Shown here piece after piece: positions 1,502 through 30,892 of a stretch of 64,000 nt of DNA (position 1 is the stretch's first letter; each line of letters starts with the position of its first letter). The notes under the pieces were generated by a model. That model ran no database searches. It was not told the origin of the DNA and saw nothing but the letters and a program-made list of their open reading frames with translations. Source of the stretch: a virus; IMG/VR virus record IMGVR_UViG_3300043427_001988, positions 1-64,000 of that record; one strand, written 5' to 3'. The position numbers were made by a program, and so were the translations under genes.

Positions 1502-1556
1502 AGTATATCATGCACAAGTACCTGTGTCAAGGGGATTTAGATGAGAGATTTCTCAT
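1502..1556 (-). promoter_or_regulatory. Class I promoter with upstream palindrome
   Basis: Leftward TTGACA (1530-1525), 17 bp, TATACT (1507-1502). ATGAGAAATCTCTCAT (read leftward, 1556-1541) ends exactly 10 bp upstream of -35. Confidence 0.85.
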
Positions 1557-1606
1557 AATCGGCCCTGCTGCGGGGGCCTGGGGGACCCCCTACCCCCTAC
1601 CCGCCC

Positions 1607-1891
1607 CTAAGGGCGAGTAAGGTAGAGATTTCCGCCGGTGACTACTAACTGTAATCCATACTTCTTTAATCTATCATTTACTTCCCAGAACATTTCATGT
1701 ACGACAAACGCAAGATTTTCTGTGAGGTTTTCGTTATCGTTATCCGCTAAATGACTAACCGGTTTTGCAAAGTCGCTCAAAAATGCGTACTGCTTCCATA
1801 GCCATTGTTGCCGTGGTAGGTTATCCCCTACCAAGCAAAGCGTGGGCTCTGCTCGGTAGGATGCCACAAGGTTAATCAGTGGTTTAGACAT
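1607..1891 (-). CDS. Hypothetical protein (94 aa)
   Basis: ATG at 1891 overlaps the stop of the upstream gene by 8 nt (ATGTCTAA), implying coupled translation. The longer frame from 1927 lies wholly inside the upstream gene. The sequence is MSKPLINLVASY, an Asn/Asp-rich middle, then a C-terminal VNDRLKKYGLQLVVTGG strand-helix. No family recognised. Its end is followed by the G-rich element at 1585-1600. Confidence 0.6.
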   Translation of the reverse strand: MSKPLINLVASYRAEPTLCLVGDNLPRQQWLWKQYAFLSDFAKPVSHLADNDNENLTENLAFVVHEMFWEVNDRLKKYGLQLVVTGGNLYLTRP

Positions 1892-2333
1892 GCTTGCTGT
1901 ACTCTCGTGCAAACAAGACAAGTCCACTGTTATCGAATGGGCGTTCCATCAAACAATGCGCAAGGGTCAACCAGAAACTTTCAGGATTCTTACGCAACTC
2001 TTCGGCAAGCATAGCAAAGTCGCCTTGTTTGGTGTGCAGACTGAACATACGCTTTTCCAACTCGTACCGCTCAAGAACAATCGGAGTTCGTGGCGTGCCA
2101 AGAATAAAACACTTTTCCACGTCATCCATCAACTCGTCAAGTTTGCTACGCAAGTCAAGTACATTAGCAGACCAATCGCCAATAGTGCTTTCGATACCGT
2201 CAAGCGTGTACTTCAAGCCGTCAATCTCATCACGCAACGAACCAACTTCTGAATCGTCAATACTGTCGCCCAACGCCTCAATCTCACCCGACAACTTGCG
2301 AAACTTTTCCATCATCTGCTCTTGTGTAAACAA
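1884..2333 (-). CDS. Coiled-coil accessory protein (149 aa)
   Basis: TTG start at 2333 with AAGGAG 7 nt upstream. Residues about 1-80 form a predicted long acidic coiled coil with regular hydrophobic positions (IEALGDSIDDSEVGSLRDEI, LDLRSKLDELMDDVEK). The C-terminal half is a mixed helical domain (FAMLAEELRKNPESFWLTLA). It probably oligomerises, function unknown. It has its own promoter at 2365-2393. Confidence 0.75.
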   Translation of the reverse strand: MFTQEQMMEKFRKLSGEIEALGDSIDDSEVGSLRDEIDGLKYTLDGIESTIGDWSANVLDLRSKLDELMDDVEKCFILGTPRTPIVLERYELEKRMFSLHTKQGDFAMLAEELRKNPESFWLTLAHCLMERPFDNSGLVLFAREYSKHV

Positions 2334-2364
2334 TGTCGTTCTCCTTAACTACGATTACTCTGTA

Positions 2365-2393
2365 AGTATACCACAACTACTCGGACTTGTCAA
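2365..2393 (-). promoter_or_regulatory. Sigma-70 promoter of the coiled-coil gene
   Basis: TTGACA (2393-2388), 17 bp, TATACT (2370-2365), leftward. The -35 box is within the final Val-Asp-Lys codons of the upstream gene. Confidence 0.85.
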
Positions 2394-2634
2394 CCTTAAG
2401 CGGTGCTTTCCATCCCTTGACTTTTTCCTTGTGTGCCTCTTCCAACTCAATCTGCACACGTACCGGAATCTTCAGCAGGTAATCAGAGTAGACACTACCA
2501 GCCTCTTGCTCCCAACCAAGCACGAACGCAATAGGCGTATACGTGTGCAAGTTACCTACCAACTTTGCGTACCAACCGGTATCAGCCATCATTACCCACT
2601 CGCCTTTTACGAAACCTTGTCGCTTTGCAGTCAC
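2377..2634 (-). CDS. Hypothetical protein (85 aa)
   Basis: GTG start at 2634 with AAGGAA about 9 nt upstream. A basic N-terminus precedes a beta-rich middle (EWVMMADTGWYAKLVGN) and a charged C-terminus (ELEEAHKEKVKGWKAPLK). No family recognised. It is expressed from a class I promoter (2665-2719). Its last codons contain the -35 of the next promoter. Confidence 0.7.
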   Translation of the reverse strand: MTAKRQGFVKGEWVMMADTGWYAKLVGNLHTYTPIAFVLGWEQEAGSVYSDYLLKIPVRVQIELEEAHKEKVKGWKAPLKVDKSE

Positions 2635-2664
2635 TTGGTCACTTCCTTTCTTGATTACATAGTA

Positions 2665-2719
2665 AGTATATCATGGGGCGATTCTTTCGTCAAGGGGAAT
2701 TAGATGAGAGATTTCTCAT
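2665..2719 (-). promoter_or_regulatory. Class I promoter with upstream palindrome
   Basis: Leftward TTGACG (2693-2688), 17 bp, TATACT (2670-2665). Palindrome 2704-2719 lies 10 bp upstream of -35. Confidence 0.8.
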
Positions 2720-2752
2720 AATCGGGGGCGTGGGGGACCCCCTACCCCCTAC

Positions 2753-2785
2753 GAAAAAGCCCCCGCCGATTACTCGACGAGGGCT
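2753..2785 (-). terminator. Intrinsic terminator with GAGTAATC loop
   Basis: Leftward AGCCCTCG pairs with CGGGGGCT around GAGTAATC and is followed by TTTTTC. It sits 5 bp after the end of the 2791-3009 gene. Confidence 0.75.
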
Positions 2786-2790
2786 ACTGA

Positions 2791-3009
2791 CTACGGTATG
2801 ATATTTGTTAAGGTGATATTGATTTCAATACAAGGCTTACCAGTAGGGATAACTAAACCAACCTCACGCTCAAATTGAGCAACAGCCGCATTGATGACTG
2901 CGTCCTCGTCTTTTGCCATCGCATACGCATCGGCAGGTACATCAGTTAACACCACTACCCCAAGCATCGCATTGTCAAACACAAACTCTACAGTGTACTC
3001 AAATTTCAT
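2791..3009 (-). CDS. Hypothetical protein (72 aa), last gene of a three-gene unit
   Basis: ATG at 3009 has GGAG 7 nt upstream, located in the last codons of the preceding gene; the gap between stop and start is 4 nt. A longer frame to 3075 has no ribosome site. The protein alternates beta strands and a helix (MKFEYTVEFVFDNAMLGVVV; DAVINAAVAQFEREVG). No family recognised. Confidence 0.7.
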   Translation of the reverse strand: MKFEYTVEFVFDNAMLGVVVLTDVPADAYAMAKDEDAVINAAVAQFEREVGLVIPTGKPCIEINITLTNIIP

Positions 3010-3013
3010 CTGC

Positions 3014-3319
3014 TTACTCCTTACTCCATACACGATAAACAGACATGCGATTTTCCTTGATGTAGTCAATCTCATCTTCGTTAATAACAGCGTGGGTATA
3101 GTTATCTGAATCTAACACATCCTCAAGTCCACCAGCCGTATACACCTCAACGTTCTCAAAGTAAAGCGTGTAATGTGTTGGCTCATCATCGTACTCATAC
3201 CCTAATCCGTGTACTCGTGTATCACCGTGAACCATGAGAATCTTGTTAATCCAGCGACCACGGGCACGACGTAACAACGCTTGACGCTCACCTGTTGAAA
3301 GTTGGTCTACATTACACAT
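3014..3319 (-). CDS. Accessory protein, paralogue family A (101 aa)
   Basis: ATG at 3319 overlaps the upstream gene's stop, with GAGGAG 10 nt upstream. It carries the family A pattern: QLSTGERQALLRRARG, then HGLGYEYDDEPTHYTLYF, matching the genes at 574-903 and 6784-7140. It is the middle gene of a unit transcribed from 3716-3744. Function unknown. Confidence 0.7.
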   Translation of the reverse strand: MCNVDQLSTGERQALLRRARGRWINKILMVHGDTRVHGLGYEYDDEPTHYTLYFENVEVYTAGGLEDVLDSDNYTHAVINEDEIDYIKENRMSVYRVWSKE

Positions 3320-3680
3320 TGTCGGTACTCTCCTCTTTTGTCTTGTCTACAAGAATAATATTACCATTAAACGTTTCGATTGTCAAGTACTTTGTGGGGG
3401 CAATTTTCTTGAGGTATTCCTCTGCCTCTGCCACCACGGTATAGTACTTCACATGCCCGGCCTGTGACGGAAAGATAGGCTCCGCAATAACCCGCACAAC
3501 GTACTCATCAGGTAAACACTGCAATAAAGAAACCCACGCAATATTATACCAATCAGGCTCAATAATCCCATCATCTTGGTCTTCCGCTGAATACCCAATG
3601 TACCGTAATGTGTAATACGGATACTCTAACCACCATCCATCATGTACATCACCAATGTCATTTGCAATTTTCTCTAGCAT
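3312..3680 (-). CDS. Hypothetical protein (122 aa), first gene of a three-gene unit
   Basis: ATG at 3680 follows TTGGAGGG by 9 nt. The frame could extend to 3725, but that would run into the promoter. The protein is rich in aromatic residues (DGWWLEYPYYTLRYIGY; PDWYNIAWVSLLQC) with a strand-forming C-terminus. No family recognised. Confidence 0.7.
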   Translation of the reverse strand: MLEKIANDIGDVHDGWWLEYPYYTLRYIGYSAEDQDDGIIEPDWYNIAWVSLLQCLPDEYVVRVIAEPIFPSQAGHVKYYTVVAEAEEYLKKIAPTKYLTIETFNGNIILVDKTKEESTDNV

Positions 3681-3715
3681 GGCTTTCGCCCTCCAATAAC
3701 TGACTCCCTGTAGGT

Positions 3716-3744
3716 AGTATAGCACGACTGAACGGAAATGTCAA
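3716..3744 (-). promoter_or_regulatory. Sigma-70 promoter of the 3680-2791 unit
   Basis: TTGACA (3744-3739), 17 bp, TATACT (3721-3716), leftward. It is backed by an AT-rich tract of repeated TTTTGAA units (3745-3785) that separates it from the rightward gene at 3881. Confidence 0.85.
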
Positions 3745-3835
3745 ATTTGAATTTTTGATTTTGAATTTTGAATTTTGAATTTTGGAAAACTTTTTTAATT
3801 CTAATGTTTTTCTAATATTTCTTTCGTATTTTCTA

Positions 3836-3844
3836 TGCTATACT
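3836..3844 (+). promoter_or_regulatory. Extended -10 promoter for the rightward pair
   Basis: TGCTATACT (extended -10) lies about 36 nt before GTG 3881. No -35 match is visible. Upstream is the AT-rich TTTTGAATTTT tract. Confidence 0.5.
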
Positions 3845-3880
3845 TATGTTGTAGTTAAGAATTGAAAGGAACGTTAACCA

Positions 3881-4333
3881 GTGAGTAACACACACATTAC
3901 TACCCCAGACAGTGTCCGTGAGTTTGTGAAGTGGATTTACGGTGAGAAAGAGCAGACAGTTATCGGCGTACTTACCCTTGTCCGTAACAATCAGGTAATC
4001 AATTCGGATATACTCGCCGTGGATTACAACGCACTAGCCTATGGTGCGTATCTCCAACCGACTGATTTCATCAAGACGCTATGTCGATTAGATGGTGAAT
4101 CAATTATTGTATTTAAGCGTGGAATGCAGGCAGACTTTTCAGACGTTGACCGTGCCTTTGTTGCGATGATGCGTCCTGCTTTGGAATTACTTAAAGTTAG
4201 TTTTTTGGATTTTGTCCTTATCTCATCAGACTGCAAGACTTGTCGCTCATTCCGTGTAGAAACACTTGCTCGTAAGGATTTGGATAAATGTTGGGATGTT
4301 AATTTTCTTTATAAAAAGGGGTTGCTCAAATGA
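3881..4333 (+). CDS. RadC/JAB-like protein lacking the metal-binding histidines (150 aa)
   Basis: GTG start at 3881 with AAGGA 10-11 nt upstream. Residues about 25-130 follow the RadC/MPN core: VIGVLTLVRNNQVINSDILA as the first strand pair, then ADFSDVDRAFVAMMRPALEL and FLDFVLIS, comparable to the PSxAD helix and the lDHiIvs strand of RadC. The HxHP motif expected before it is replaced by VFKRGMQ, so a metalloprotease-type site is absent. The fold assignment is by eye and tentative. The Cys pair CKTC near 130 is not typical of RadC. Confidence 0.5.
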   Translation: MSNTHITTPDSVREFVKWIYGEKEQTVIGVLTLVRNNQVINSDILAVDYNALAYGAYLQPTDFIKTLCRLDGESIIVFKRGMQADFSDVDRAFVAMMRPALELLKVSFLDFVLISSDCKTCRSFRVETLARKDLDKCWDVNFLYKKGLLK

Positions 4334-4629
4334 ATTACTTTGTGTATAACTTGTGGATTATTGACCCATACGGTAAGTTGTTCTTCTACACACAGTCAGA
4401 TAGTATTGAGGCAATTGAGAAAAGACGCGCGGATTTTATTGCAGTCTACCCAAAGCAACAATACCACGCTACACTCGTTACCATCATGCCACGGGTAAAC
4501 CGCCTGCTCGTATGGGAAGTCCGACAATGGGAAGATTACCACGAAAAGTATGTTGTGCTGCACACAGAGAAGCCGGTGAAAAAGCGCAAGAGCAAAAAGT
4601 CCCCCCAGCCTGAAACTCCCCAAGAATAA
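4330..4629 (+). CDS. Hypothetical basic-tailed protein (99 aa)
   Basis: ATG at 4330 overlaps the TGA of the RadC-like gene (ATGA), so the pair is coupled. An aromatic N-terminal beta-rich part (MNYFVYNLWIIDPYGKLFFY) is followed by a Lys/Pro tail (KPVKKRKSKKSPQPET) that may bind nucleic acid. No family recognised. Confidence 0.65.
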   Translation: MNYFVYNLWIIDPYGKLFFYTQSDSIEAIEKRRADFIAVYPKQQYHATLVTIMPRVNRLLVWEVRQWEDYHEKYVVLHTEKPVKKRKSKKSPQPETPQE

Positions 4630-4638
4630 AAAAAAGTC

Positions 4639-4671
4639 CAAGAAAAAACTCCCCCGAAATAACTTCGGGGG
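4639..4671 (-). terminator. Intrinsic terminator (leftward), between convergent genes
   Basis: CCCCCGAA (4651-4658) pairs with TTCGGGGG (4664-4671). Read leftward, the hairpin is followed by AGTTTTTTCTTG, a good U-run. The downstream stretch 4672-4806 holds no gene: it contains a GGCCT/AGGCC hairpin (about 4687-4710), the CTRGACCG-GTAGT motif, and the inverted G-rich element at 4761-4783. Confidence 0.7.
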
Positions 4672-4806
4672 AAATTTACGTCCAGGGCCTAGACCGTAGT
4701 AGTTTCAGGCCAACGAGCAAGGCTTCTAGCGTTAAAAAAAAAGAAGGTACTTGGGAAAGTAGGGGGGCTGGGGGGTGCGCCCCGAAGGGCTGATTTGTCA
4801 AGATGA

Positions 4807-5088
4807 CTAATCAAGCAATTCCAGCGTATTTTCACGTTTCCAAACGCCCGTTTGTGGGTAGCGTTGCGATGTTTTCCAGTGGTGCTCTGCTATCTTAAGC
4901 CCGAGCGTTTGCACTGTTTCCAGTGTAAATTCCTGCTGTGAGTAGTGATTTGAATATTGATTATCCGCCGCAAGGTCACGCATATCTTCAACGCACAGCC
5001 AAAACGCGTCTGTGTCGTTTTGTGGTAACTCAATAAGGATTTTGTACGTTGCCCAAAACATCACGGTATAGTTAGTCCACTTGTTCAT
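4807..5088 (-). CDS. Hypothetical protein (93 aa)
   Basis: ATG at 5088 with AAGGAG 8 nt upstream. The protein is helical and Trp/Tyr-rich (MNKWTNYTVMFWATYKILIE; DAFWLCVEDMRDLAADN). No family recognised. It is monocistronic, from a class I promoter at 5120-5148. Confidence 0.7.
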   Translation of the reverse strand: MNKWTNYTVMFWATYKILIELPQNDTDAFWLCVEDMRDLAADNQYSNHYSQQEFTLETVQTLGLKIAEHHWKTSQRYPQTGVWKRENTLELLD

Positions 5089-5119
5089 ACGTCGCTCTCC
5101 TTAACTTGCTTACATAGTA

Positions 5120-5174
5120 AGTATACACGATAAACAAACCGGTGTCAATAGCAGTTTTATGAGAAATCTCTCAT
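5120..5174 (-). promoter_or_regulatory. Class I promoter with upstream palindrome
   Basis: Leftward TTGACA (5148-5143), 17 bp, TATACT (5125-5120). Palindrome 5159-5174 is 10 bp upstream of -35. Confidence 0.85.
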
Positions 5175-5204
5175 AATCGGGGCTTGGGGCACCCCCTACC
5201 CCCT

Positions 5205-5234
5205 AAAACCCCTTACACTTTCGTGCAAGGGGCT
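5205..5234 (-). terminator. Terminator of the GP88-like gene
   Basis: Leftward CCCCTTGCAC and GTGTAAGGGG pair (10 bp with one G-U) around GAAA and are followed by TTTT. Confidence 0.7.
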
Positions 5235-5248
5235 AGAGGTGTAAGTGA

Positions 5249-5971
5249 TTAGTGATACTTGAAACCGATTACACGGGGCGTTGTAAGGCTTGGTAATGCG
5301 CTAGGAGCGCACAAGCGACACGCTACACATTTTACAGTACCCTGTGTAATCTGATTTGGGCAAATAACTAACTTTGCCCCGCCTAACATATCCGGTGTAG
5401 GAATATTTTTTACATTTACCGCCAACGTCGTAAGCCATCCTAATGCACGGGCAAGCCGTACTTCGTCTGCTGTATCACATGAAGCCATAAACCATTTTTT
5501 GAGCGGTTGCAATTCATCTAACATCCAGCCGTGAGTGTATCCGATACTTTTTACACCGATTGCATCTAATTGTTCACACGCCCACACTTGTGCATCAATA
5601 TACTCTTTACTTGGCTTATCGTTCTCAAACACATCACCGCTAACATGCCAGCGTACCATTTGTACACGTTTAGCCGCAGTTACGCCCTTGCCTTTATCAG
5701 CGTTGCGTAGCGTCATAAACTTTGACACTTCTACCCGTAACTTAAGAGCATCTACCATACCCGATTTTGCCTGCTGTAAATTAGTGCGCCCTTTTTTGGT
5801 GTAACAGATAGTCATACGCCCGAATGCTTGACGTTTTGCCTCACCGTACTCGTTAGGCTCGGGGTGATACATACACGACGACGGGCAAGAATCACCGGTA
5901 CGGTTGTATGTTACTGCTACTGATTTGTCGGTTGACAGTTTCGCATCGCCACTATTTACTACAAACTTCAT
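5249..5971 (-). CDS. GP88-like phage protein of unknown function (240 aa)
   Basis: ATG at 5971, GAGGAG 8 nt upstream. Features seen: CPSSC near residue 29, the motif VRWHVSGDVF near 106, and a C-terminal pair CVACRLC near 220 followed by RVIGFKYH. The combination of an early Cys pair, an R-x-H-x-SGD segment, a CPNQ segment and late Cys pairs is typical of a widespread phage family (GP88-like), whose function I do not know; metal binding by the Cys residues is an inference. It is the largest gene in this accessory array and is driven by a class II promoter. Confidence 0.65.
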   Translation of the reverse strand: MKFVVNSGDAKLSTDKSVAVTYNRTGDSCPSSCMYHPEPNEYGEAKRQAFGRMTICYTKKGRTNLQQAKSGMVDALKLRVEVSKFMTLRNADKGKGVTAAKRVQMVRWHVSGDVFENDKPSKEYIDAQVWACEQLDAIGVKSIGYTHGWMLDELQPLKKWFMASCDTADEVRLARALGWLTTLAVNVKNIPTPDMLGGAKLVICPNQITQGTVKCVACRLCAPSALPSLTTPRVIGFKYH

Positions 5972-6001
5972 AATCGTTACTCCTCAATCACTTACATATA
6001 T

Positions 6002-6046
6002 AGTATAACATACAAATACCCAAAGTAAAATGAGAGAATGATGAGA
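6002..6046 (-). promoter_or_regulatory. Class II promoter with TCTCAT direct repeats
   Basis: Leftward -10 TATACT (6007-6002). TCTCAT ends 22 bp upstream (6035-6030), and a second TCTCAT lies 5 bp further (6046-6041). There is no consensus -35. Confidence 0.65.
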
Positions 6047-6135
6047 AGCAACACTTTACACCCTTACACCGGCCAGGGCTTTGTGATGCGGTGTTGGCCC
6101 TGGGTGGTGTAAGGGGGCCTGTGGGCGACCCCCTA

Positions 6136-6163
6136 CCCCCTAATTCAAAGTGAATTGGGGGCT
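6136..6163 (-). terminator. Hairpin after the 84-aa gene
   Basis: Leftward CCCCCAATTC and GAATTAGGGGG form a long stem. There is no clear U-run. It is immediately followed by the G-rich element (6128-6143), which overlaps the 3' arm. Confidence 0.45.
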
Positions 6164-6170
6164 GTGGTGA

Positions 6171-6425
6171 CTAGTCGTCGTATGCAGGGTCTGTACCGTC
6201 TTGATGAAAAGTCATTCCTACTCGATTGTAGTTACCGTTAACAAACTCAATGTGTTGAGTAATACGAAAATCAGCGGTTTGTAGCCACTTATCTGAAAAT
6301 GGTATCAGCAGAAACTCGTAACCATCCTCATCCAAAAATCGAATACCATCCTCAACGACAACCAAGCGGTAATCGTGGGTATGTTCCTGCCGACTTACTA
6401 AGTCACCTCGGTTAAAGAATGTCAT
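6171..6425 (-). CDS. Hypothetical beta-rich protein (84 aa)
   Basis: ATG at 6425 with GCGAGG 5 nt upstream. The sequence is a run of predicted strands (YRLVVVEDGIRFLDEDGYEF; FRITQHIEFVNGNYNRVGM), suggesting a small beta barrel. No family recognised. Class I promoter at 6455-6483. Confidence 0.7.
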   Translation of the reverse strand: MTFFNRGDLVSRQEHTHDYRLVVVEDGIRFLDEDGYEFLLIPFSDKWLQTADFRITQHIEFVNGNYNRVGMTFHQDGTDPAYDD

Positions 6426-6454
6426 AACAACCTCGCTTACTAACTTATGTATTA

Positions 6455-6509
6455 AGTATACCGCAAACTAGTGTATCTGTCAACAACAAGTTTATGAGAG
6501 TTTTCTCAT
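6455..6509 (-). promoter_or_regulatory. Class I promoter with upstream palindrome
   Basis: Leftward TTGACA (6483-6478), 17 bp, TATACT (6460-6455). Palindrome 6494-6509, 10 bp upstream of -35. Confidence 0.85.
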
Positions 6510-6548
6510 TTGACGTGCTGCACGGCCTGGGGCACCCCCTACCCCCTA

Positions 6549-6770
6549 CTACGCTGGATTACCCAGGTAGTAGTGGACTTCATATACATCTATCAATTCC
6601 CCGTTTTCGTCGAGTGCCTCAAAGTGACCGTCTACACGCTCTAGTTCATTTTCATAACAATAATCCGCACAATACATATCCGAACGCAATATAAAATCAT
6701 CCATATCATTAATAGTAAAATCATCCACCAACATCAAATCTTCACCCATATACGCACGTACTGTAATCAT
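6549..6770 (-). CDS. Hypothetical acidic protein (73 aa)
   Basis: ATG at 6770 with AAAGGA about 8 nt upstream, after the TAG of the preceding gene. The frame upstream to 6797 overlaps that gene and lacks a ribosome site. It is Asp/Glu-rich (DDFTINDMDDFILRSDMYC; EALDENGELIDVYEVHYYLG). No family recognised. Second gene of a pair. Confidence 0.65.
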   Translation of the reverse strand: MITVRAYMGEDLMLVDDFTINDMDDFILRSDMYCADYCYENELERVDGHFEALDENGELIDVYEVHYYLGNPA

Positions 6771-6783
6771 CTGCTTATCCTTT

Positions 6784-7140
6784 CTACCATACCTCATTAT
6801 TCCAGCGTGGATAGGTTAACCATCGACGAGGCTCAAAACGCTCATCCAGTAATTCCTTCCCAAATACTGCTATTGAATCAATAACATCTTCATCTTCTTC
6901 CCCAAAGTATGCACAAGCGACTACCTTATTCCACTCTTCGGCGTAATAGTGATTCTTCCCTACAATCAGTTCGTATACATCGGGAAATTGTGCATACTCA
7001 TAACCATGCACGAAAAACTTAATATTACCTACATGACGCACAAGATGACGAACACGCCCACCGAGTACCATACGTGCGGCTTCAATTCGCTCTTCCACGC
7101 TCATCTGCTGTACCAAACGCATCACATTCTCTAGGCTCAT
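6784..7140 (-). CDS. Accessory protein, paralogue family A (118 aa)
   Basis: ATG at 7140 has GGAG 6 nt upstream; the extension to 7152 would include that site. The family A pattern is clear: QMSVEERIEAARMVLGGRV, then NIKFFVHGYEYAQFPDVYEL, matching the genes at 574 and 3014. The C-terminus is extended and Arg/Trp-rich (ERFEPRRWLTYPRW). Class II promoter at 7170-7214. Confidence 0.7.
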   Translation of the reverse strand: MSLENVMRLVQQMSVEERIEAARMVLGGRVRHLVRHVGNIKFFVHGYEYAQFPDVYELIVGKNHYYAEEWNKVVACAYFGEEDEDVIDSIAVFGKELLDERFEPRRWLTYPRWNNEVW

Positions 7141-7169
7141 TGTGTACTCCATTTCTTGATTACATAGGT

Positions 7170-7214
7170 ATTATAACACACTTTTGATAACTGAATTATG
7201 AGAACAAGATTAGA
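7170..7214 (-). promoter_or_regulatory. Class II promoter with direct repeats
   Basis: Leftward -10 TATAAT (7175-7170). TCTCAT (7203-7198) ends 22 bp upstream, and TCTAAT (7214-7209) lies 5 bp beyond. There is no consensus -35. The flanking 7215-7260 is a run of TTTTCAGTTTTCA-type repeats. Confidence 0.65.
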
Positions 7215-7296
7215 AAAACGGATTTTCAGTTTTCAGTTTTCAATTTTCAATTTTACTTGACTTTTTTCGATTTTCGGGTTACCCCCTACCCCCTAC

Positions 7297-7330
7297 GCAA
7301 AAAGCCCCCGCTGATTACTCAACGAGGGCT
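7297..7330 (-). terminator. Intrinsic terminator with GAGTAATC loop
   Basis: Leftward AGCCCTCG pairs with CGGGGGCT around a GAGTAATC-containing loop and is followed by TTTTTG. It is nearly identical to 2753-2785. Confidence 0.75.
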
Positions 7331-7346
7331 ATATACATTGTACACA

Positions 7347-7763
7347 CTAGGGAATAGCAAACCGAGAGCGATACCCTTCAATACCTAACTGCTCCGGCAC
7401 ACCTTTACTAATCAGTTCCTCAAACGAAACCGAGTGAGAGTATTGTACCTTCTCTGCTTCCGCATGGTAATGGTATATCTCTACCGTCTGCGTTGACCAT
7501 GTGATTACAGGCAATTCACGGTACTCTGATTCGGGTAGAAACCGACCATACAACGACACACCACCGCCGAGCGTTGATTCATAACTGTTGATGATAGCAT
7601 TCAACGCAATACGATTTGCATATGAATAATCACTCCATCGCCCACTAGCCTGCACAACGGCGTTTTGTGCATCTACCATAGGATGCTTGCCCCAATGTGC
7701 ATACACAAACATGATAGGCGACATCTGCGTATCACGAATACCCACTACTACACGATTACCCAC
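7347..7763 (-). CDS. Conserved phage protein of unknown function (138 aa)
   Basis: GTG start at 7763 with GAGGTG 6-7 nt upstream. MFVYAHWGKHPMVDAQNAV followed by GRWSDYSYANRIALNAIIN resembles a protein widespread in actinobacterial and related phages (pattern vYxHWxGyP, then a W-x-D-xx-Y-x-xR segment). Its function is unknown to me. The rest is beta-rich. It has its own promoter at 7795-7823 and terminator at 7297-7330. Confidence 0.65.
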   Translation of the reverse strand: MGNRVVVGIRDTQMSPIMFVYAHWGKHPMVDAQNAVVQASGRWSDYSYANRIALNAIINSYESTLGGGVSLYGRFLPESEYRELPVITWSTQTVEIYHYHAEAEKVQYSHSVSFEELISKGVPEQLGIEGYRSRFAIP

Positions 7764-7794
7764 TAGCGCACCTCTTTCTATCTCTTACACAAGT

Positions 7795-7823
7795 ATTATA
7801 CCACAATTAAAAATAGCGGTCAA
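7795..7823 (-). promoter_or_regulatory. Sigma-70 promoter
   Basis: Leftward TTGACC (7823-7818), 17 bp, TATAAT (7800-7795). The -35 lies inside the 3' end of the 7807-8073 gene. Confidence 0.8.
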
Positions 7824-8073
7824 TCATATCTTCGTAATCTTCCCCACGCTCATACTCCGAGATACGGTACTTAATACCCTCTGATTCAGCACGGTTAAGA
7901 AACTCCGGCGCATCACAATCCTCTTCGAGATACCACGTACTACCGACACAAACACTAAAACGAGTAGGCTTGAAACTGACACGCTCAACGAGAAACGTGG
8001 GCACTTCCAAATACCCGTGACGTGGCGTGCTTGAGAATACTAGACCGTAGATTACTTGTTGTGTGTTGCTCAT
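7807..8073 (-). CDS. Hypothetical protein (88 aa)
   Basis: ATG at 8073 with AAGGAG 10 nt upstream. A beta-rich N-terminal two-thirds is followed by an acidic helical tail (YERGEDYEDMIDRYF). No family recognised. Class II promoter at 8107-8139. Confidence 0.7.
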   Translation of the reverse strand: MSNTQQVIYGLVFSSTPRHGYLEVPTFLVERVSFKPTRFSVCVGSTWYLEEDCDAPEFLNRAESEGIKYRISEYERGEDYEDMIDRYF

Positions 8074-8106
8074 TTGGCAATTACTCCTTAACTTGACTAC
8101 ATAATT

Positions 8107-8139
8107 ATTATACCAGACTTTTATGAGAATGGGGTGAGA
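8107..8139 (-). promoter_or_regulatory. Class II promoter with direct repeats, close spacing
   Basis: Leftward -10 TATAAT (8112-8107). TCTCAT (8128-8123) ends 10 bp upstream, and TCTCAC (8139-8134) lies 5 bp beyond. The stretch 8140-8279 holds no gene: it has a TCCTGG/CCAGGA palindrome (8151-8163), an AGGACCAAGGTAGTG motif and the inverted G-rich element from 8225. Confidence 0.6.
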
Positions 8140-8279
8140 GAATTTTGGGTTCCTGGACCAGGACCAAGGTAGTGCAGCGACGGCCTCACAAATGCCCCTA
8201 GAAATTTATTAGAGCGACGATAGCCCCAAAGTAGGGGGGCTGGGGGGTACGCCCCGAAGGGCTTGTTGTCAAGTGGTTT

Positions 8280-8513
8280 TTAGAGCAAATCTACCTCATT
8301 TGAACTAATCCAGTGCCCAACGTTATTACGGTAATCCACCACGGCTATAAGCATTTCTTGAAGGTCGTTTAATGTGTATGTAAACTTTTCTACTGTTTTA
8401 TACCATTCCAGCACATCGTTTGATGTAATTTCCAAAAAACAATGATTTTGAGTAATTTCGATGGTCAATGTGTATGCTTTGTACTCGGTAGTGACTTTAT
8501 TAGTCCACATCAT
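8280..8513 (-). CDS. Accessory protein, paralogue family B (77 aa)
   Basis: ATG at 8513 with GAGG 6 nt upstream. It is paralogous to the adjacent gene at 8643-8891: both begin MWT, continue with Y-x-L-x-IxITQ (AYTLTIEITQNHCFLEI here), a helix (LNDLQEMLIAVVD) and end WISSNEVDLL or WIHSNDVDTL. It arose by tandem duplication. Function unknown. Confidence 0.7.
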   Translation of the reverse strand: MMWTNKVTTEYKAYTLTIEITQNHCFLEITSNDVLEWYKTVEKFTYTLNDLQEMLIAVVDYRNNVGHWISSNEVDLL

Positions 8514-8544
8514 AACGCACCTCACTTAACTTGATTACATTAGT

Positions 8545-8599
8545 ATTATAGCGCAGGTAATAACCCGTGTCAAGAGGAAGTAGATGAGAGTTTTCTCAT
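8545..8599 (-). promoter_or_regulatory. Class I promoter with upstream palindrome
   Basis: Leftward TTGACA (8573-8568), 17 bp, TATAAT (8550-8545): full consensus. Palindrome 8584-8599, 10 bp upstream of -35. Confidence 0.9.
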
Positions 8600-8642
8600 T
8601 TGACAAACGCCCCGGTCTGGGGCACCCCCTACCCCCTATCGC

Positions 8643-8891
8643 TTACAACGTGTCTACATCATTTGAATGAATCCATACCTTGAAGTTGAGGTAGTTATCA
8701 ACTACCTTCATTAATAGTGCTTGTGCATCTTCTAAGGATGCATCGCCACGGTTAATTATATGTGAAAATACCGGCGGGCTATCATATTGATTTGGTGCAT
8801 CAATGAATAGGATATAATCCCGCTGAGTAATCACAATTTCCAAATTATACAACTCATAATCCCGCGATGCTCTCACTGTCCACATGTCCAT
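8643..8891 (-). CDS. Accessory protein, paralogue family B (82 aa)
   Basis: ATG at 8891 with GAGG 6 nt upstream. It is the second member of family B (LYNLEIVITQRDYILFI; LEDAQALLMKVVDNYLNF; WIHSNDVDTL), with a short insertion relative to the 8280 gene. It has its own promoter at 8923-8951. Function unknown. Confidence 0.7.
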   Translation of the reverse strand: MDMWTVRASRDYELYNLEIVITQRDYILFIDAPNQYDSPPVFSHIINRGDASLEDAQALLMKVVDNYLNFKVWIHSNDVDTL

Positions 8892-8922
8892 GATGTACCT
8901 CACTTAATTTGATTACACTAGT

Positions 8923-8951
8923 AGTATACCATGAACCTAAACCAATGTCAA
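8923..8951 (-). promoter_or_regulatory. Sigma-70 promoter
   Basis: Leftward TTGACA (8951-8946), 17 bp, TATACT (8928-8923). The -35 overlaps the stop region of the 8948-9160 gene. Confidence 0.85.
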
Positions 8952-9160
8952 TAAGTTTGTGAAATCCGCTGTAATTGACCGTCTGCATCAACGGTAAAAT
9001 CAAAAGCGTGGGAATCTAAATCAATAAAATCATCACCAAAATCTGTGGGCGTGTAGGTTATTGAACTTAACACTGCACCATCTTGAGCATAGGCAGTTAC
9101 GTCAAAGGTATCAAATCCACGAATATGAACTTGGATGCGAACTTGTTGAATCTGGCTCAT
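8948..9160 (-). CDS. Hypothetical beta-rich protein (70 aa)
   Basis: ATG at 9160 with GGAG 8 nt upstream. The open frame up to 9214 only translates the promoter and leader. The sequence is alternating strands (VRIQVHIRGFDTFDVTAYAQ) with a D-rich segment (DFGDDFIDLDSHAFDF). No family recognised. Class I promoter within the duplicated 115-bp block. Confidence 0.65.
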   Translation of the reverse strand: MSQIQQVRIQVHIRGFDTFDVTAYAQDGAVLSSITYTPTDFGDDFIDLDSHAFDFTVDADGQLQRISQTY

Positions 9161-9176
9161 GTCATTAACTCCGTTA

Positions 9177-9291
9177 CTTAACTTGATTACATTAGTAGTA
9201 TAAACGATATTCATACTGTTGTCAAGAGCAGTTTTATGAGAGTTTTCTCATTTGACAAACGCCCCGGCCTGGGGCACCCCCTACCCCCTAC
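9177..9291 (-). repeat. 115-bp regulatory block, duplicated at 9795-9909
   Basis: 9177-9291 and 9795-9909 align over 115 bp with a single visible difference (gagCagt versus gagTagt). Each copy holds leader, -10, -35, palindrome, GCCCC/GGGGC hairpin and G-rich element. This looks like recent duplication or conversion of a whole intergenic control unit. Confidence 0.9.
9197..9251 (-). promoter_or_regulatory. Class I promoter with upstream palindrome
   Basis: Leftward TTGACA (9225-9220), 17 bp, TATACT (9202-9197). Palindrome 9236-9251, 10 bp upstream of -35. Confidence 0.85.
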
Positions 9292-9296
9292 GCAAC

Positions 9297-9331
9297 GAAA
9301 AAAGACCCGCCCTGATTACCAGGGCAGGTCT
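9297..9331 (-). terminator. Intrinsic terminator overlapping the end of the 55-aa gene
   Basis: Leftward AGACCTGCCCTG and CAGGGCGGGTCT pair and are followed by TTTTTTCG. The stem includes the last codons and stop of the 9316 gene. Confidence 0.8.
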
Positions 9332-9483
9332 GACAAGTCAACAATCGGACTAGTATCAGCAGGGATAATTACATCTTGCTCATCAATCCACTGCTCCCAC
9401 ACTTGCTCAAAGTCGGGGGCGATTTCGTCAACTTGCTCATCCATCATGAAGTCGGTGAGGAAGATAAGTGGTAAGTTTGGCAT
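9316..9483 (-). CDS. Small acidic protein (55 aa)
   Basis: ATG at 9483 with AAGGAG 7 nt upstream; the frame extending to 9558 is leader translation. A hydrophobic start (MPNLPLIFLTDFMMDEQ) is followed by very acidic Asp/Glu/Trp-rich sequence (EQVWEQWIDEQDV). Such acidity is typical of small phage host-interaction proteins, but no function can be assigned. Confidence 0.6.
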   Translation of the reverse strand: MPNLPLIFLTDFMMDEQVDEIAPDFEQVWEQWIDEQDVIIPADTSPIVDLSDLPW

Positions 9484-9513
9484 TTCGCATCTCCTTAACT
9501 TGATTACATACGT

Positions 9514-9542
9514 AGTATAGCACACATTGAAACCGGTGTCAA
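9514..9542 (-). promoter_or_regulatory. Sigma-70 promoter
   Basis: Leftward TTGACA (9542-9537), 17 bp, TATACT (9519-9514). The -35 overlaps the stop of the 9539 gene. Confidence 0.85.
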
Positions 9543-9784
9543 GTGAGTATTTTTTCAATTACCACATACGGGGCAATAAACATACATACATCACTTGGTA
9601 ACATAAGATGTAATGAAACAGTATCTTTATTTTGCACATATGCAACCATCTCGGCAATCTCACGGGCACGCTCTTCTGTAATCGTAGCCGCAATACGCTC
9701 ATCTTCGGTTAATTCAATACGCCCGACAATCTCGCCGTTGTGAGTGATTTTGATGTGTGTCCACGGTGCAAGTGTGTTGCTCAT
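9539..9784 (-). CDS. Hypothetical protein (81 aa)
   Basis: ATG at 9784 with AAGGAG 7 nt upstream, the same leader (AAGGAGATGCGAAATG) as the 9316 gene. It has beta strands, then a helix (ERAREIAEMVAYV), then a hydrophobic C-terminus. No family recognised. Driven by the second copy of the 115-bp block. Confidence 0.65.
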   Translation of the reverse strand: MSNTLAPWTHIKITHNGEIVGRIELTEDERIAATITEERAREIAEMVAYVQNKDTVSLHLMLPSDVCMFIAPYVVIEKILT

Positions 9785-9814
9785 TTCGCATCTCCTTAAC
9801 TTGATTACATTAGT

Positions 9815-9869
9815 AGTATAAACGATATTCATACTGTTGTCAAGAGTAGTTTTATGAGAGTTTTCTCAT
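9815..9869 (-). promoter_or_regulatory. Class I promoter with upstream palindrome
   Basis: Leftward TTGACA (9843-9838), 17 bp, TATACT (9820-9815). Palindrome 9854-9869, 10 bp upstream of -35. Confidence 0.85.
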
Positions 9870-9905
9870 TTGACAAACGCCCCGGCCTGGGGCACCCCCT
9901 ACCCC

Positions 9906-10007
9906 CTAGTCCTCGTCGAAAAGTTCTGATTTAATCCGCCCGCTAATTACTAAAACAAAACCCACAATACTTACATAACCCATATAAACCAAAATCATCT
10001 CTAACAT
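9906..10007 (-). CDS. Single-span membrane peptide (33 aa) downstream of the tmRNA-like gene
   Basis: ATG at 10007 preceded by AAAGGG about 8 nt upstream, and stop TAG at 9908-9906. MLEMILVYMGYVSIVGFVLV is one hydrophobic segment, followed by a charged tail (RIKSELFDED). It begins about 20 nt after the CCA end of the RNA at 10028-10160 and is probably on the same transcript. Function unknown; small phage membrane peptides often act on host membranes, but that is only analogy. Confidence 0.6.
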   Translation of the reverse strand: MLEMILVYMGYVSIVGFVLVISGRIKSELFDED

Positions 10008-10027
10008 AGTACACACCCTTTCTATAA

Positions 10028-10160
10028 TGGTGGAGATGTCGGGAATCGAACCCGAGTCCAAAATGCTTTACACCATTGAAGGTAGGCGGTTTTCGCGTCT
10101 TACCGTGGGCAGTTATCACTACTCACCGCCAAAACACCCTGTCAATACCGTGTCATCCCC
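10028..10160 (-). ncRNA. ssrA-like: tmRNA-like RNA, very short (133 nt)
   Basis: Read leftward from 10160, the 5' end GGGGATGACACGGTATTGAC and the 3' end GGGTTCGATTCCCGACATC plus TCCACCA match tmRNA termini. GGGGATG pairs with CATCTCC over 7 bp including a third-position G-U, the alanine identity pair of tmRNA. The T arm is TCGGG-TTCGATT-CCCGA with an encoded CCA. GTGTTTT and AAAGCAT can form helix 2. GGCGGT/ACCGCC plus GGTA/TACC suggest one H-type pseudoknot. Bacterial tmRNA is about 350 nt with four pseudoknots and a tag frame. Here only one pseudoknot fits, and one frame reads TAG TGA TAA after it. The 5' end directly follows the stop codon of the upstream gene, so maturation would need RNase P. 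Confidence 0.75.
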
Positions 10161-10397
10161 TTATTGCAAATCCAGCGTATTCGTCACAGGATTAAAGTAG
10201 CGCACCGTTTTTGAGCCTTTAGCAAACAACGGGTTACGAATTGGGGCACTAATTAACCACCGCCCATCATCCTGTGCAATAATCGAAAAATCCTCTAATC
10301 GTTGACCGCACATCTTCATCTCACGGTGTGAGAAAAACAGAGGATGATTCTCTTTGGTCAATCGCTTAATCTCGTGAATCGTTGGTCGCTTGTTCAT
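10161..10397 (-). CDS. Hypothetical protein (78 aa) co-transcribed with the tmRNA-like RNA
   Basis: ATG at 10397 with AGAGG 7 nt upstream; the TAA (10163-10161) is immediately followed by the first G of the tmRNA-like RNA. Basic N-terminal helix (MNKRPTIHEIKRLTKENH), then beta-rich sequence (DGRWLISAPIRNPLF; KTVRYFNPVTNTL). No family recognised. Position suggests, but does not prove, a shared role with the RNA. Confidence 0.65.
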   Translation of the reverse strand: MNKRPTIHEIKRLTKENHPLFFSHREMKMCGQRLEDFSIIAQDDGRWLISAPIRNPLFAKGSKTVRYFNPVTNTLDLQ

Positions 10398-10428
10398 CGT
10401 GTCACCTCTTATCTAACCTTATGTATTA

Positions 10429-10483
10429 AGTATACAGCACAAATACCAGCGTGTCAAGAGCAATTTTATGAGAGTTTTCTCAT
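10429..10483 (-). promoter_or_regulatory. Class I promoter of the 78-aa gene, tmRNA-like RNA and 33-aa peptide
   Basis: Leftward TTGACA (10457-10452), 17 bp, TATACT (10434-10429). Palindrome 10468-10483, 10 bp upstream of -35. Confidence 0.85.
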
Positions 10484-10519
10484 TTGACAAACCCCGCGGC
10501 CTGGGGCACCCCCTACCCC

Positions 10520-10735
10520 CTATCGCTGAATATGCTCATATTTTGCTTCACATTGTTTACAAATATGTTTCACCCCGACGTTACCATCATAGAAACAATA
10601 TTCATAAAAGGTATAAAAGCCTGCTGGGAAAGTAAACACCCGCAAATTATACTCTTCTTTACCACACGCCTGACAATGCGTATCAAAATATCGCTCAAGC
10701 CGACCATCATCACCGATACGTAGTTTAGCCTCCAT
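10520..10735 (-). CDS. Small zinc-ribbon-like protein (71 aa)
   Basis: ATG at 10735 with AAGGAG 6 nt upstream. CQAC near residue 21 and CKQC near residue 59 give a four-Cys arrangement typical of a zinc ribbon, with an aromatic beta core between (RVFTFPAGFYTFYEYCFYDG). Metal and nucleic-acid binding are inferences. Class II promoter at 10765-10809. Confidence 0.65.
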   Translation of the reverse strand: MEAKLRIGDDGRLERYFDTHCQACGKEEYNLRVFTFPAGFYTFYEYCFYDGNVGVKHICKQCEAKYEHIQR

Positions 10736-10764: not shown

Positions 10765-10809
10765 ATTATAACACACATTCATACTGAGTTTTATGAGCGC
10801 AAGATTAGA
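10765..10809 (-). promoter_or_regulatory. Class II promoter with direct repeats
   Basis: Leftward -10 TATAAT (10770-10765). GCTCAT (10798-10793) ends 22 bp upstream, and TCTAAT (10809-10804) lies 5 bp beyond. An AT-rich TTTTGAATTTT-type tract follows at 10812-10865. Confidence 0.6.
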
Positions 10810-10917
10810 AAATCAAATTTTGAATTTTAGATTTTGAATTTTCAATTTTAAATTTTAATTTTTCTTTTAATTTGACATTTTTTGAAATTCGGGCTACCCC
10901 CTACCCCCTGAACGCCA

Positions 10918-11094
10918 CTACGAGTAGTAGCGTTCGACCAACTCTTCACCATTTGCCCCGATGAAGTAGAGCAGGAACATAGTTTTCGGCATCATGACTT
11001 TGAGCAGTTGAATAGTCAACAGTGCCTTATCCAAGCCCTCTACATCCATTGAGCCGTTCCCGTGAGCGTATTCCATCTTGATGCGGTATGTCAT
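10918..11094 (-). CDS. Small hypothetical protein (58 aa)
   Basis: ATG at 11094 with AAGGAG 6 nt upstream, stop TAG at 10920-10918. The protein reads MTYRIKMEYAHGNGSMDVEG, a Leu-rich helix (LDKALLTIQLLKVMM), then a hydrophobic strand (MFLLYFIGANGEELVERYY). No family recognised. The strong ribosome site, its own promoter and the trailing G-rich element (10896-10911) support it as a gene. Confidence 0.65.
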   Translation of the reverse strand: MTYRIKMEYAHGNGSMDVEGLDKALLTIQLLKVMMPKTMFLLYFIGANGEELVERYYS

Positions 11095-11123: not shown

Positions 11124-11177
11124 ATTATACACCAAAAAAGTACGCTGTGCGCGACTTTTCATGAGAATTAGATGAGA
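11124..11177 (-). promoter_or_regulatory. Class II promoter with direct repeats, distant
   Basis: Leftward -10 TATAAT (11129-11124). TCTCAT (11166-11161) ends 31 bp upstream, and a second TCTCAT (11177-11172) lies 5 bp beyond. There is no consensus -35. Confidence 0.6.
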
Positions 11178-13584: not shown

Positions 13585-13653
13585 TACGATACCCCTATCA
13601 ATATAATAGCGGGGGCGTATATCACCCCCGCAACGAACCCGCTGCAAACCGAT

Positions 13654-13669
13654 TGTTTCACGTGAAACA
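13654..13669. other. parS: parS site 1 (TGTTTCACGTGAAACA)
   Basis: Perfect 16-bp palindrome identical to the canonical bacterial chromosomal parS bound by ParB (Spo0J). It directly abuts the TAA of the 13670-14050 gene. Confidence 0.9.
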
Positions 13670-14050
13670 TTAACCCCGTTTGATTGTTGTAATCAATACG
13701 TCTAATGCATCACGGGTATTTTTTGCATCATTCGAATATGTTTGTAGACGTGCTACTAATGCATTATTACGTTGAATTAACCCCCGCAACGTTTGTTTGT
13801 ATGAACGTCGTAATTCTATATCGTACCATTTGGTATCAATAAGTAGACCGCTGATAATAGTAATTTGTTTCGTTACATCGTTCAATTCTACGGTGTCAAC
13901 ATGGGTAAACCGTTCGATAGTTTGTAGCACGTCTAGTGTAGTACCAAATGTTGCAATTTGTAGCGGGTTCATATTCTTAACCCGTTCGTTCAATACCCGC
14001 TTATATTCGCTAGAATTAACCGGTTTACGTTGCGTTTGTTTGTTATCCAT
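13670..14050 (-). CDS. Helical coiled-coil-like protein (126 aa)
   Basis: ATG at 14050 with AGGGG 6 nt upstream. Basic N-terminus (MDNKQTQRKPVNSSEYKRVL) followed by predicted long helices (VDTVELNDVTKQITIISGLL; RRSYKQTLRGLIQRNNALVA). Looks like an oligomeric adaptor or DNA-binding protein; no ParB, ParA or CTPase motif is present. Its stop codon touches parS 1. Confidence 0.65.
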   Translation of the reverse strand: MDNKQTQRKPVNSSEYKRVLNERVKNMNPLQIATFGTTLDVLQTIERFTHVDTVELNDVTKQITIISGLLIDTKWYDIELRRSYKQTLRGLIQRNNALVARLQTYSNDAKNTRDALDVLITTIKRG

Positions 14051-14064
14051 TGTGAACCCCTATT

Positions 14065-14151
14065 CTATACTAATGCTAAAAATACAAATACTGCTATCAC
14101 CCAAACATACACCCATACACAAACCCAAAAAATAAACGTCAAATTATCCAT
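14065..14151 (-). CDS. Single-span membrane peptide (28 aa)
   Basis: ATG at 14151 preceded by the cassette leader (AGGGG, 6 nt), stop TAG at 14067-14065. Sequence MDNLTFIFWVCVWVYVWV then IAVFVFLALV is one strongly hydrophobic helix. The stop is followed at once by AATAGGGGTTCACAATG for the next gene. The conserved leader is the main support. Confidence 0.6.
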   Translation of the reverse strand: MDNLTFIFWVCVWVYVWVIAVFVFLALV

Positions 14152-14156
14152 TGTGA

Positions 14157-14235: not shown

Positions 14236-14236
14236 A

Positions 14237-14521: not shown

Positions 14522-14589
14522 TCGATACCCCTATCAATATAATAGCGGGGGCGTTTATCACCCCCGCAACGAACCCGAACCGAACCCAT

Positions 14590-14605: not shown

Positions 14606-14606
14606 T

Positions 14607-30517: not shown

Positions 30518-30892
30518 ATGAAAAAATGTATTATTTGCGATAATTTTGTAGTACGGAATACGCAATTCTGTAGCGAGTGTAGTATATTATATCAGGGGAT
30601 GGAACAAGAACAATGGTTTAAAGACCTCGCAACAATGATGAAAAAGCAGCGTTATATTGATGATATGGAACGATTTAGTCTACACAATGTAGAAAATGGT
30701 CGTAGGGTTAAAGCACGGAGAGCGAAGATAGGAAGACCCCCAGTTCCTTTGATTGTAAAAGAATTAATTTTATCTATTTACAGAGGAGACCATGTATTAT
30801 CCTTACGCGAAATTGAAAAGATTTGTAAGAACAGCGGTGTGTCGGTTTCTATAGGAACTATCCGCAAAATACTTCTTGAGTATAAAGAATAA
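30518..30892 (+). CDS. Zinc-ribbon plus HTH DNA-binding protein (124 aa)
   Basis: ATG at 30518, AGGAG 7 nt upstream. N-terminal CIIC and CSEC pairs (residues 4-22) form a zinc ribbon. The C-terminus GRPPVPLIVKELILSIYRG, LREIEKICKNSGVSVS, IGTIRKIL aligns with the C-terminal domain of the next gene's GIY-YIG nuclease (GRPSMPDIVRNSIQDLYRE; VSRETVRSL). It lacks a nuclease domain, so it may regulate the nuclease or be a remnant of another. Confidence 0.7.
   Translation: MKKCIICDNFVVRNTQFCSECSILYQGMEQEQWFKDLATMMKKQRYIDDMERFSLHNVENGRRVKARRAKIGRPPVPLIVKELILSIYRGDHVLSLREIEKICKNSGVSVSIGTIRKILLEYKE

Follow-up and report, generated by a model that had tools for sequence, protein, structure and literature searches.

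A helically phased TCTCAT half-site, and a palindromic form of it, at the left-arm promoters of a phage family

The DNA analyzed here, positions 1 to 64,000 of the IMG/VR virus record IMGVR_UViG_3300043427_001988 (hereafter the window, 64,000 nucleotides long), carries in its left arm eight copies of a 16-bp palindrome, ATGAGA-N4-TCTCAT, at promoters of small genes. An initial annotation of the window had reported that the palindrome ends exactly 10 bp before TTGACA in eight promoters and had ascribed it to a regulator contacting RNA polymerase, or to a phage-specific upstream element, controlling a whole set of small genes. The eight 16-mers were confirmed at the plus-strand starts it gave, with both 6-bp arms free of mismatches; that all eight stand upstream of minus-strand promoters had gone unmentioned. 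Read 5′ to 3′ on the minus strand, the distance from the end of the palindrome to the −35 box is exactly 10 bp in 8/8 copies, and this box is TTGACA in seven of them, the copy at 2704 having TTGACG instead. In every case the TTGAC box is followed after 17 bp by TATACT or TATAAT, and for seven of the eight promoters the core elements are near-perfect (11-12 of 12 positions). Placing the −10 box at −12 to −7 puts the palindrome at −61 to −46, with its center at −53.5, in agreement with the annotation (about −46 to −61). A search for the motif over the whole record (68,926 bases) returned only these eight, and a reversed-pattern control returned none.

Each of these minus-strand promoters lies ahead of an open reading frame (ORF). 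The first palindrome (1541..1556) is followed by a −35 at 1530-1525 and a −10 at 1507-1502, ahead of ORF 1203-1475; the second (2704..2719) by a −35 at 2693-2688 and a −10 at 2670-2665, ahead of ORF 2377-2634. The third (5159..5174; −35 5148-5143, −10 5125-5120; ORF 4807-5088) has its central four bases oriented opposite to those of the 1541 and 2704 copies. The fourth (6494..6509; −35 6483-6478, −10 6460-6455) precedes ORF 6171-6425, and the fifth (8584..8599; −35 8573-8568, −10 8550-8545, TATAAT) precedes ORF 8280-8525. The sixth (9236..9251; −35 9225-9220, −10 9202-9197) belongs to ORF 8948-9214, which is likely to use a later start because its first listed start codon lies upstream of the −10; a later start is also likely for ORF 9539-9832, behind the seventh palindrome (9854..9869; −35 9843-9838, −10 9820-9815). 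The eighth (10468..10483; −35 10457-10452, −10 10434-10429) precedes ORF 10161-10397 and then a gene for an RNA resembling transfer-messenger RNA (tmRNA) at 10028-10160.

Allowing up to two mismatches gave 10 matches in the window, where 2.06 were expected from 100 dinucleotide shuffles, none of which exceeded 7; the two beyond the eight are 2-mismatch matches at 1496 and 39001. The copies at 9236 and 9854 share a 114-nt block with 99% identity (family D1) and are therefore a recent duplication. Identity to the reference is lower in family D2, at only 61-79% over 67-nt blocks, but no change is seen there in the arms, in TTGAC, or in TATA. In the alignment of all eight promoters, the linkers vary, whereas both arms and TTGAC are constant and so is most of the −10. 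On the plus strand, TTGACA adjoins the palindrome in four copies (8584, 9236, 9854, and 10468) and TTGACG in one (6494). A divergent promoter was considered for this plus-strand TTGACA and rejected, as no −10 follows it on that strand; we read it as the tail of the preceding unit (TTTGTCAA on the minus strand).

We classed by upstream context 22 promoters on the minus strand of the window's first 12 kb. Seven of them (564, 937, 2370, 3363, 7800, 8928, and 9519) reach into the 3′ end of the gene before them, and all of these have a −35 matching at least five of six consensus bases. The other 15 follow a gap or, at 3721, a divergent gene. The palindrome is found at eight of them and a direct repeat of its TCTCAT arm, in some cases degenerate, at five, which leaves two, 3721 and 11671, free of either. 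A site is thus found at 13/15 gap-following and 0/7 overlapping promoters (p = 0.0002), a comparison confounded by space, since coding sequence lies upstream of the overlapping promoters. The −35 also separates the two kinds of site in this phage, matching at least 5/6 in all eight palindrome promoters and at most 4/6 in all five direct-repeat promoters.

The direct repeats are likewise on the minus strand. TCTCAT-N5-TCTCAT occurs at 6030..6046, with half-sites 22 and 33 bp from a −10 at 6007-6002 (−35 4/6), ahead of ORF 5249-5971, and again at 11161..11177, 42 and 31 bp from a −10 at 11129 (−35 3/6), ahead of ORF 10918-11094. The pair TCTAAT/TCTCAT at 7198..7214 lies 33 and 22 bp from a −10 at 7175 (−35 2/6; ORF 6784-7152), TCTCAC/TCTCAT at 8123..8139 lies 21 and 10 bp from a −10 at 8112 (−35 2/6; ORF 7807-8073), and a degenerate TCTAAT/GCTCAT at 10793..10809 lies 33 and 22 bp from a −10 at 10770 (−35 3/6; ORF 10520-10735). 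As a separate feature of this region, AT-rich AAAATTC / GAATTTT repeats, several with a 14-bp step, are found at 3729-3797, 7214-7254, and 10802-10890; they resemble UP elements and stand upstream of promoters 3721, 7175, and 10770.

Relatives of the window's phage (G000) were gathered through its ribonucleotide reductase, which gave 17 loci, including 72-78 kb contigs collinear with the window. A 49.7-kb contig near-identical to G000 (G007) ends before the left arm and was left out of all counts as a near-duplicate; G009 was also dropped from the promoter-layout listing, and G009 and G018 from the shuffle test and the −35 comparison, in all three of which repeated promoter sequences were counted once. 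The contig set includes a distant relative (G015) and a probably unrelated record (G020). The palindrome, with up to one mismatch, was found in 0/12 relatives; among 12 records retrieved by the motif itself, six have a match, which is exact in two (G016 and G020). What the relatives carry at their left-arm promoters is TTCTCAT-N4-TTCTCAT, the half-site YTCTCAT occurring mostly as 11-bp direct repeats. The annotation's reading needs correcting on this point, since the palindrome with its strict 10-bp spacing is not the general arrangement but this phage's version of an element that in its relatives consists mainly of 11-bp direct repeats at several helical positions.

The half-site also emerged when no motif was preset: among 6-mers upstream of promoters, TCTCAT ranked first in G005, G008, G009, and G016, second in G014, and third in G000; in G002 it came only fourteenth among the listed words, and it was not among the listed enriched 6-mers of G011, G015, and G020. 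The flank TCTCAT-AAAAC...-TTGACA is common to G000, G005, and G010. When IMG/VR was scanned blind with nothing but the direct repeat, 22 stretches came back, several of them relatives already known; L072, L073, L075/L089, L076, and L084 encode homologs of these phages, and the remaining stretches look like chance matches. The sole IMG/VR match to the exact palindrome plus 10 bp plus TTGACA (L005) was set aside as chance, lying inside a coding region of an unrelated contig. Scanning the genome collection with the direct repeat gave 20 matches over unrelated phyla with nothing consistent on the helical grid described below, about the number that we estimate chance would give; a looser repeat occurs one to four times in each of these 20 genomes, at least one being guaranteed by the selection. 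A limited literature search found no description of the YTCTCAT or palindrome motif. As for the genes behind the sites, a pattern scan confirmed no relatives of the 240-aa left-arm protein encoded at 5249-5971, which tblastn places in 7/17 fetched contigs.

The occurrence of the half-site as tandem repeats bears on two rival explanations of the palindrome. It might act as RNA, its 6-bp hairpin contributing to a terminator, or to a processing site, between units, and in four copies it does stand directly after a GC-rich hairpin sequence with the TTTGTCAA tail. No U-run follows the palindrome, however, a terminator scan does not list it, and the direct repeats of the relatives form no hairpin, so that we regard this as very improbable. 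For two of the eight palindromes the same scan lists a terminator-like site ahead of them (2785-2758 and 9331-9303); that the hairpin preceding the palindrome may itself be a terminator is conjecture. It is also quite improbable, if somewhat less so, that the element is a UP-like DNA feature for the alpha subunit of RNA polymerase, without a dedicated protein: the interval −46 to −61 overlaps the UP-element zone and an AAA flank follows the palindrome in 5/8 promoters, but UP elements are A/T tracts, whereas here TCTCAT / ATGAGA keeps its C and G invariant and forms a dyad in eight promoters and tandem copies elsewhere. Often beside hairpin sequence there is, in addition, a 30-nt G-rich repeat (TAGGGGGTAGGGGGT / ACCCCCTACCCCCTA) at 11 left-arm places (193-222, 1571-1600, 2723-2752, 5177-5206, 6114-6143, 6520-6549, 7267-7296, 8610-8639, 9262-9291, 9880-9909, and 10494-10523), possibly a terminator or G-quadruplex element.

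We then measured, in 18 related or motif-matched viral contigs holding 372 YTCTCAT half-sites, the distance from each half-site to −10-like hexamers on the same strand. The distances peak at 10 bp (7 pairs), 21-22 bp (42), 32-33 bp (81), 43 bp (25), and 54 bp (8), with few pairs between these peaks. In 16 contigs, with repeats counted once, 138 pairs fell on this grid, whereas 20 dinucleotide shuffles averaged 4.5 and never exceeded 8; the Rayleigh R was 0.79 at a period of 11.0 bp. Because pairs that belong to the same tandem array depend on one another, separate events are fewer than these figures imply. Among 25 permuted half-sites, the largest phased counts were 48 for TCATCT, 37 for TTCTCA, and 25 for TACTCT, the first two of which overlap the motif. 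The inverted word ATGAGA, taken over all its occurrences, was weakly phased (R 0.31 at 10.5 bp; n = 104, eight of them the window's own).

The position of the half-site on the grid goes along with the quality of the −35. The 16 contigs contain 108 promoters with a perfect on-grid half-site; allowing up to one mismatch at each position, nine have a half-site at 10 bp, 46 at 22 bp, and 53 only at 33 bp or beyond. A −35 matching at least 5/6 is present in 0/9, 3/46, and 22/53 of these, respectively, that is, in 3/55 proximal versus 22/53 distal promoters (p = 7e-6), and the difference persists without G000 (3/52 versus 13/43, p = 0.002). TGn precedes the −10 in 3, 39, and 31 promoters of the three groups. 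Lack of room does not explain the loss of the −35, since a site at 22 bp shares just one base with the −35 hexamer; the G014 promoter at 31417 in fact combines a site at 23 bp with TTGACT. Such a trade-off is what an activator able to replace the −35 contact would leave. In the palindrome promoters of the window, the direct TCTCAT lies at 33 bp and the inverted ATGAGA at 43 bp from the −10. Inverted half-sites stand beside direct ones in G005 (14332, at 52 bp), G014 (53, 54, and 64), G016 (53, 54, and 63), and G020 (64), again about one turn from the direct ones, which suggests that one binder may sit in either orientation at the outer position.

Taken together, these data lead us to consider it probable that YTCTCAT is a family-wide activator half-site used in class I-like and class II-like layouts, with the palindrome as a class I-like variant. 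Activator copies would sit on one face of the DNA, about 11 bp or one helical turn apart, at fixed steps from the −10. A proximal pair (10+21 or 22+33 bp, the latter centered near −43) would replace a missing −35 in a class II-like manner. With the pair one turn higher, a consensus −35 could stay and the protein would act from the region of the alpha-subunit C-terminal domain, class I-like; the eight palindromes would be this form with the outer half-site inverted and the center at −53.5. They head transcription units of small, poorly conserved genes, and plain TTGACA promoters drive the genes further inside these units. The positions, the phasing, the trade-off with the −35, and the use across the family are seen in the sequences; binding, activation, and the reading of both arrangements by one protein are the conjectural parts of this model. 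The part of the annotation's proposal that gains support from comparison is a sequence-specific protein acting together with RNA polymerase to control a group of small genes, through the helical grid, the −35 loss near the −10, and the 13/15 versus 0/7 distribution.

Several observations weigh against an activator read in this way, beyond the dependence of pairs within arrays. Off-grid clusters occur at 2 bp (9 pairs) and 12-13 bp (10), although some off-grid pairs stem from TAAAAT words counted as −10. Phased half-sites number 0/11 in G011 and 1/10 in G003, other partial contigs have little or none, and the 78-kb G015 has only one YTCTCAT grid promoter while its zinc-ribbon/helix-turn-helix protein is still recognizable. 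In the window, promoter 11671 follows a gap without any site, and among the direct repeats of the relatives some come with a −35 box and some lack it. Proteins of the OmpR/PhoB type bind head-to-tail, so that a perfect palindrome would be an uncommon site for them, and YTCTCAT matches the pho box of Escherichia coli, CTGTCAT, only partially. Finally, promoters with consensus −10 and −35 boxes should not need an activator, so that the palindromes might instead tune, repress, or time transcription.

This last point is also the ground for a repressor. The palindrome could be an operator for a phage or host repressor that damps strong promoters or silences small genes, as in L5-like stoperators, and core elements as near-perfect as these would fire without help; in alphaproteobacterial phages, CtrA itself represses one phage promoter and activates others (PMC9437464). 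A site centered at −53.5 leaves the core promoter free, however, the same half-site accompanies missing −35 boxes in the relatives, and eight phage records contain neither an HTH_3 domain nor an integrase above the family cut-off. We therefore judge repression unlikely and retain the activator model in what follows.

As to the protein that would read the half-site, our leading candidate, advanced tentatively and by analogy, comes from the host: an OmpR/PhoB-type response regulator, which we favor because no such regulator was detected in the phages; the Trans_reg_C domain was found in 0/11 phage records, compared to 12/14 control genomes. Searches of eight phage records were also negative for HTH_3 (PF01381), Mor (PF08765), and Ogr_Delta (PF04606), and no integrase (PF00589) exceeded the cut-off in these eight, which may be fragments; one sub-threshold match was seen in G016 (E 0.0077). 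A phage-encoded binder is a possibility to be taken seriously, if with less conviction, the sites then marking a middle or delayed-early regulon such as those of Mu Mor/C, P2 Ogr, or T4 MotA. The candidate is encoded at 30518..30892 (plus strand) by the gene that opens the rightward arm, next to a divergent promoter pair; the protein has a zinc-ribbon-like N terminus (CxxC...CxxC) and a C-terminal helix-turn-helix. It is present in 12/17 other contigs, with four invariant N-terminal cysteines, a GRP...SRETIRRIL helix-turn-helix, and 22 invariant columns in 11 sequences; its predicted structure is helical and helix-turn-helix-like (pLDDT 80.5), and its best PDB matches are mostly helix-turn-helix DNA-binding domains, none with E below 0.5. 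The restriction of the motif to this phage family, with chance-level matches elsewhere, would also fit a phage protein. On the other hand, its helix-turn-helix resembles the C termini of transposases and homing endonucleases, G015, with its single such promoter, retains both the protein and its recognition helix, and the Mor, Ogr_Delta, HTH_3, and Trans_reg_C domains were absent from the phages searched. The neighboring ORF 30892-31584 (plus strand) is itself GIY-YIG/NUMOD1 homing-endonuclease-like, with a C-terminal helix-turn-helix resembling that of the zinc-ribbon protein, and a comparable helix-turn-helix recurs in a further ORF of the relative G012.

Pho boxes are among the closest known systems, tandem 11-bp units and a replaced −35 being marks of OmpR/PhoB-type response regulators. 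The spacing of the E. coli pho box equals the 10+21 layout. PHO boxes of Streptomyces PhoP are direct repeat units of 11 nt with a conserved GTTCACC (PMC6988585), and the E. coli pho box takes the place of the −35, where PhoB meets sigma (PMC3413638); the half-sites described here share only in part the 11-bp direct repeats with a conserved 7-mer and the −35 replacement. Two 7-bp repeats with a 4-bp spacer describe the relatives and five window promoters, some with degenerate half-sites, but not the eight palindromes, and 52/55 proximal sites lack a good −35 while the palindrome promoters keep theirs. The core is TCTCAT rather than GTTCACC (PMC6988585), and, unlike pho/PHO boxes, the arrays slide over five helical positions, take a palindromic form in the window, and amount to tens of sites in one phage; nor does TCTCAT agree with the E. 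coli box given above.

Host regulators acting on phage promoters have precedents. In alphaproteobacterial phages, the OmpR-family host regulator CtrA binds many clustered promoter sites in the phage genomes (PMC9437464). The CtrA site is TTAA-N7-TTAA, clustered in gap regions and terminal repeats, whereas here the sites are spread over single-gene promoters in fixed phase to the −10. Host PhoB binds cyanophage promoters, a parallel to the host response regulator that we favor, though at a cyanobacterial pho box, PyTTAAPyPy(T/A), and at few genes per phage (PMC10976474). Among phage-encoded activators, Mu Mor binds at the sigma-70 promoter Pm a 16-bp element with short inverted repeats, centered at −43.5, which replaces the −35 (PMC4390567). 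The element size and inverted repeats are similar, and the proximal 22+33 pair lies near −43, but the palindrome stands one turn higher (−53.5), retains a −35 of at least 5/6, and occurs in a phage group where a Mor-family gene was not found in eight records. The dyad position is also reminiscent of another phage system. In the late promoters read by P2 Ogr and P4 delta, the dyad TGT-N12-ACA lies near −55 and the activator contacts the alpha subunit; a set of promoters shares a similar dyad center in both cases, but the dyad differs and no Ogr_Delta was found in the eight records. Because the features tested for Mor, Ogr, and repressor operators do not agree with those of the palindrome system and the pho-box features agree only in part, we describe it as a phage regulon with an upstream activator site and place it in no named family.

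If this description holds, the family offers a natural series of activator-promoter geometries, with five helical positions, both orientations, and presence or absence of a −35, of a kind usually built by hand in bacterial transcription work. The site would also mark the heads of units and so predict co-regulated genes among small uncharacterized phage genes. Were the binder a host response regulator, host signals would gate a large set of phage genes, beyond what the CtrA phages and cyanophage PhoB provide. As a speculation that we think rather doubtful in its full extent, the accessory-gene arm of the family may be wired to one regulator through a grid of about five phased positions, with either orientation outermost; position would set need (no −35) versus boost (consensus −35), and cassette-borne copies would plug new genes into a common early programme, probably gated by host signals.

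Similarity searches with other genes of the window did not assign a host. The portal protein had no match in 400 Chloroflexota and 386 Cyanobacteria genomes, an empty result that proves little, and 50,697 phage records yielded no match to terminase or portal. Thermus phages have the closest class II ribonucleotide reductases, at about 40%; the polymerase is less than 30% identical to all listed matches, and the capsid-region protein matched one Microcystis phage at 24%. Neither the portal and terminase nor the reductase, polymerase, and capsid-region similarities were taken to assign one.

Other features of the window were recorded alongside. The tmRNA-like RNA of about 133 nt at 10028-10160 (minus strand) matches Rfam RF00023 with 72.6 bits and was missed by ARAGORN. 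It has homologs at L057:6052-6184, L133:3689-3821, and L122:12277-12408, all on the minus strand; conservation extends to the acceptor and T-arm ends, covariation in the T-stem is seen across three sequences, and no tag reading frame is obvious. The tmRNA-like RNA of G005 begins directly behind a YTCTCAT promoter. Four GC-rich hairpin copies, GCGGGGGTGAT..ACGCCCCCGC and then TATTATATTG, lie on the minus strand at 13609-14832. The large terminase ORF (23759-26362, minus strand; 867 aa) has a weak match to an intein-splicing domain, below the Pfam cut-off. Lastly, a consensus promoter-like word, TTGACAAAGTTGGAAGAACTTGGTATACT, at 56424-56452 is the same or nearly so in G002, G005, G007, G008, G009, and G011 and may be conserved coding sequence.

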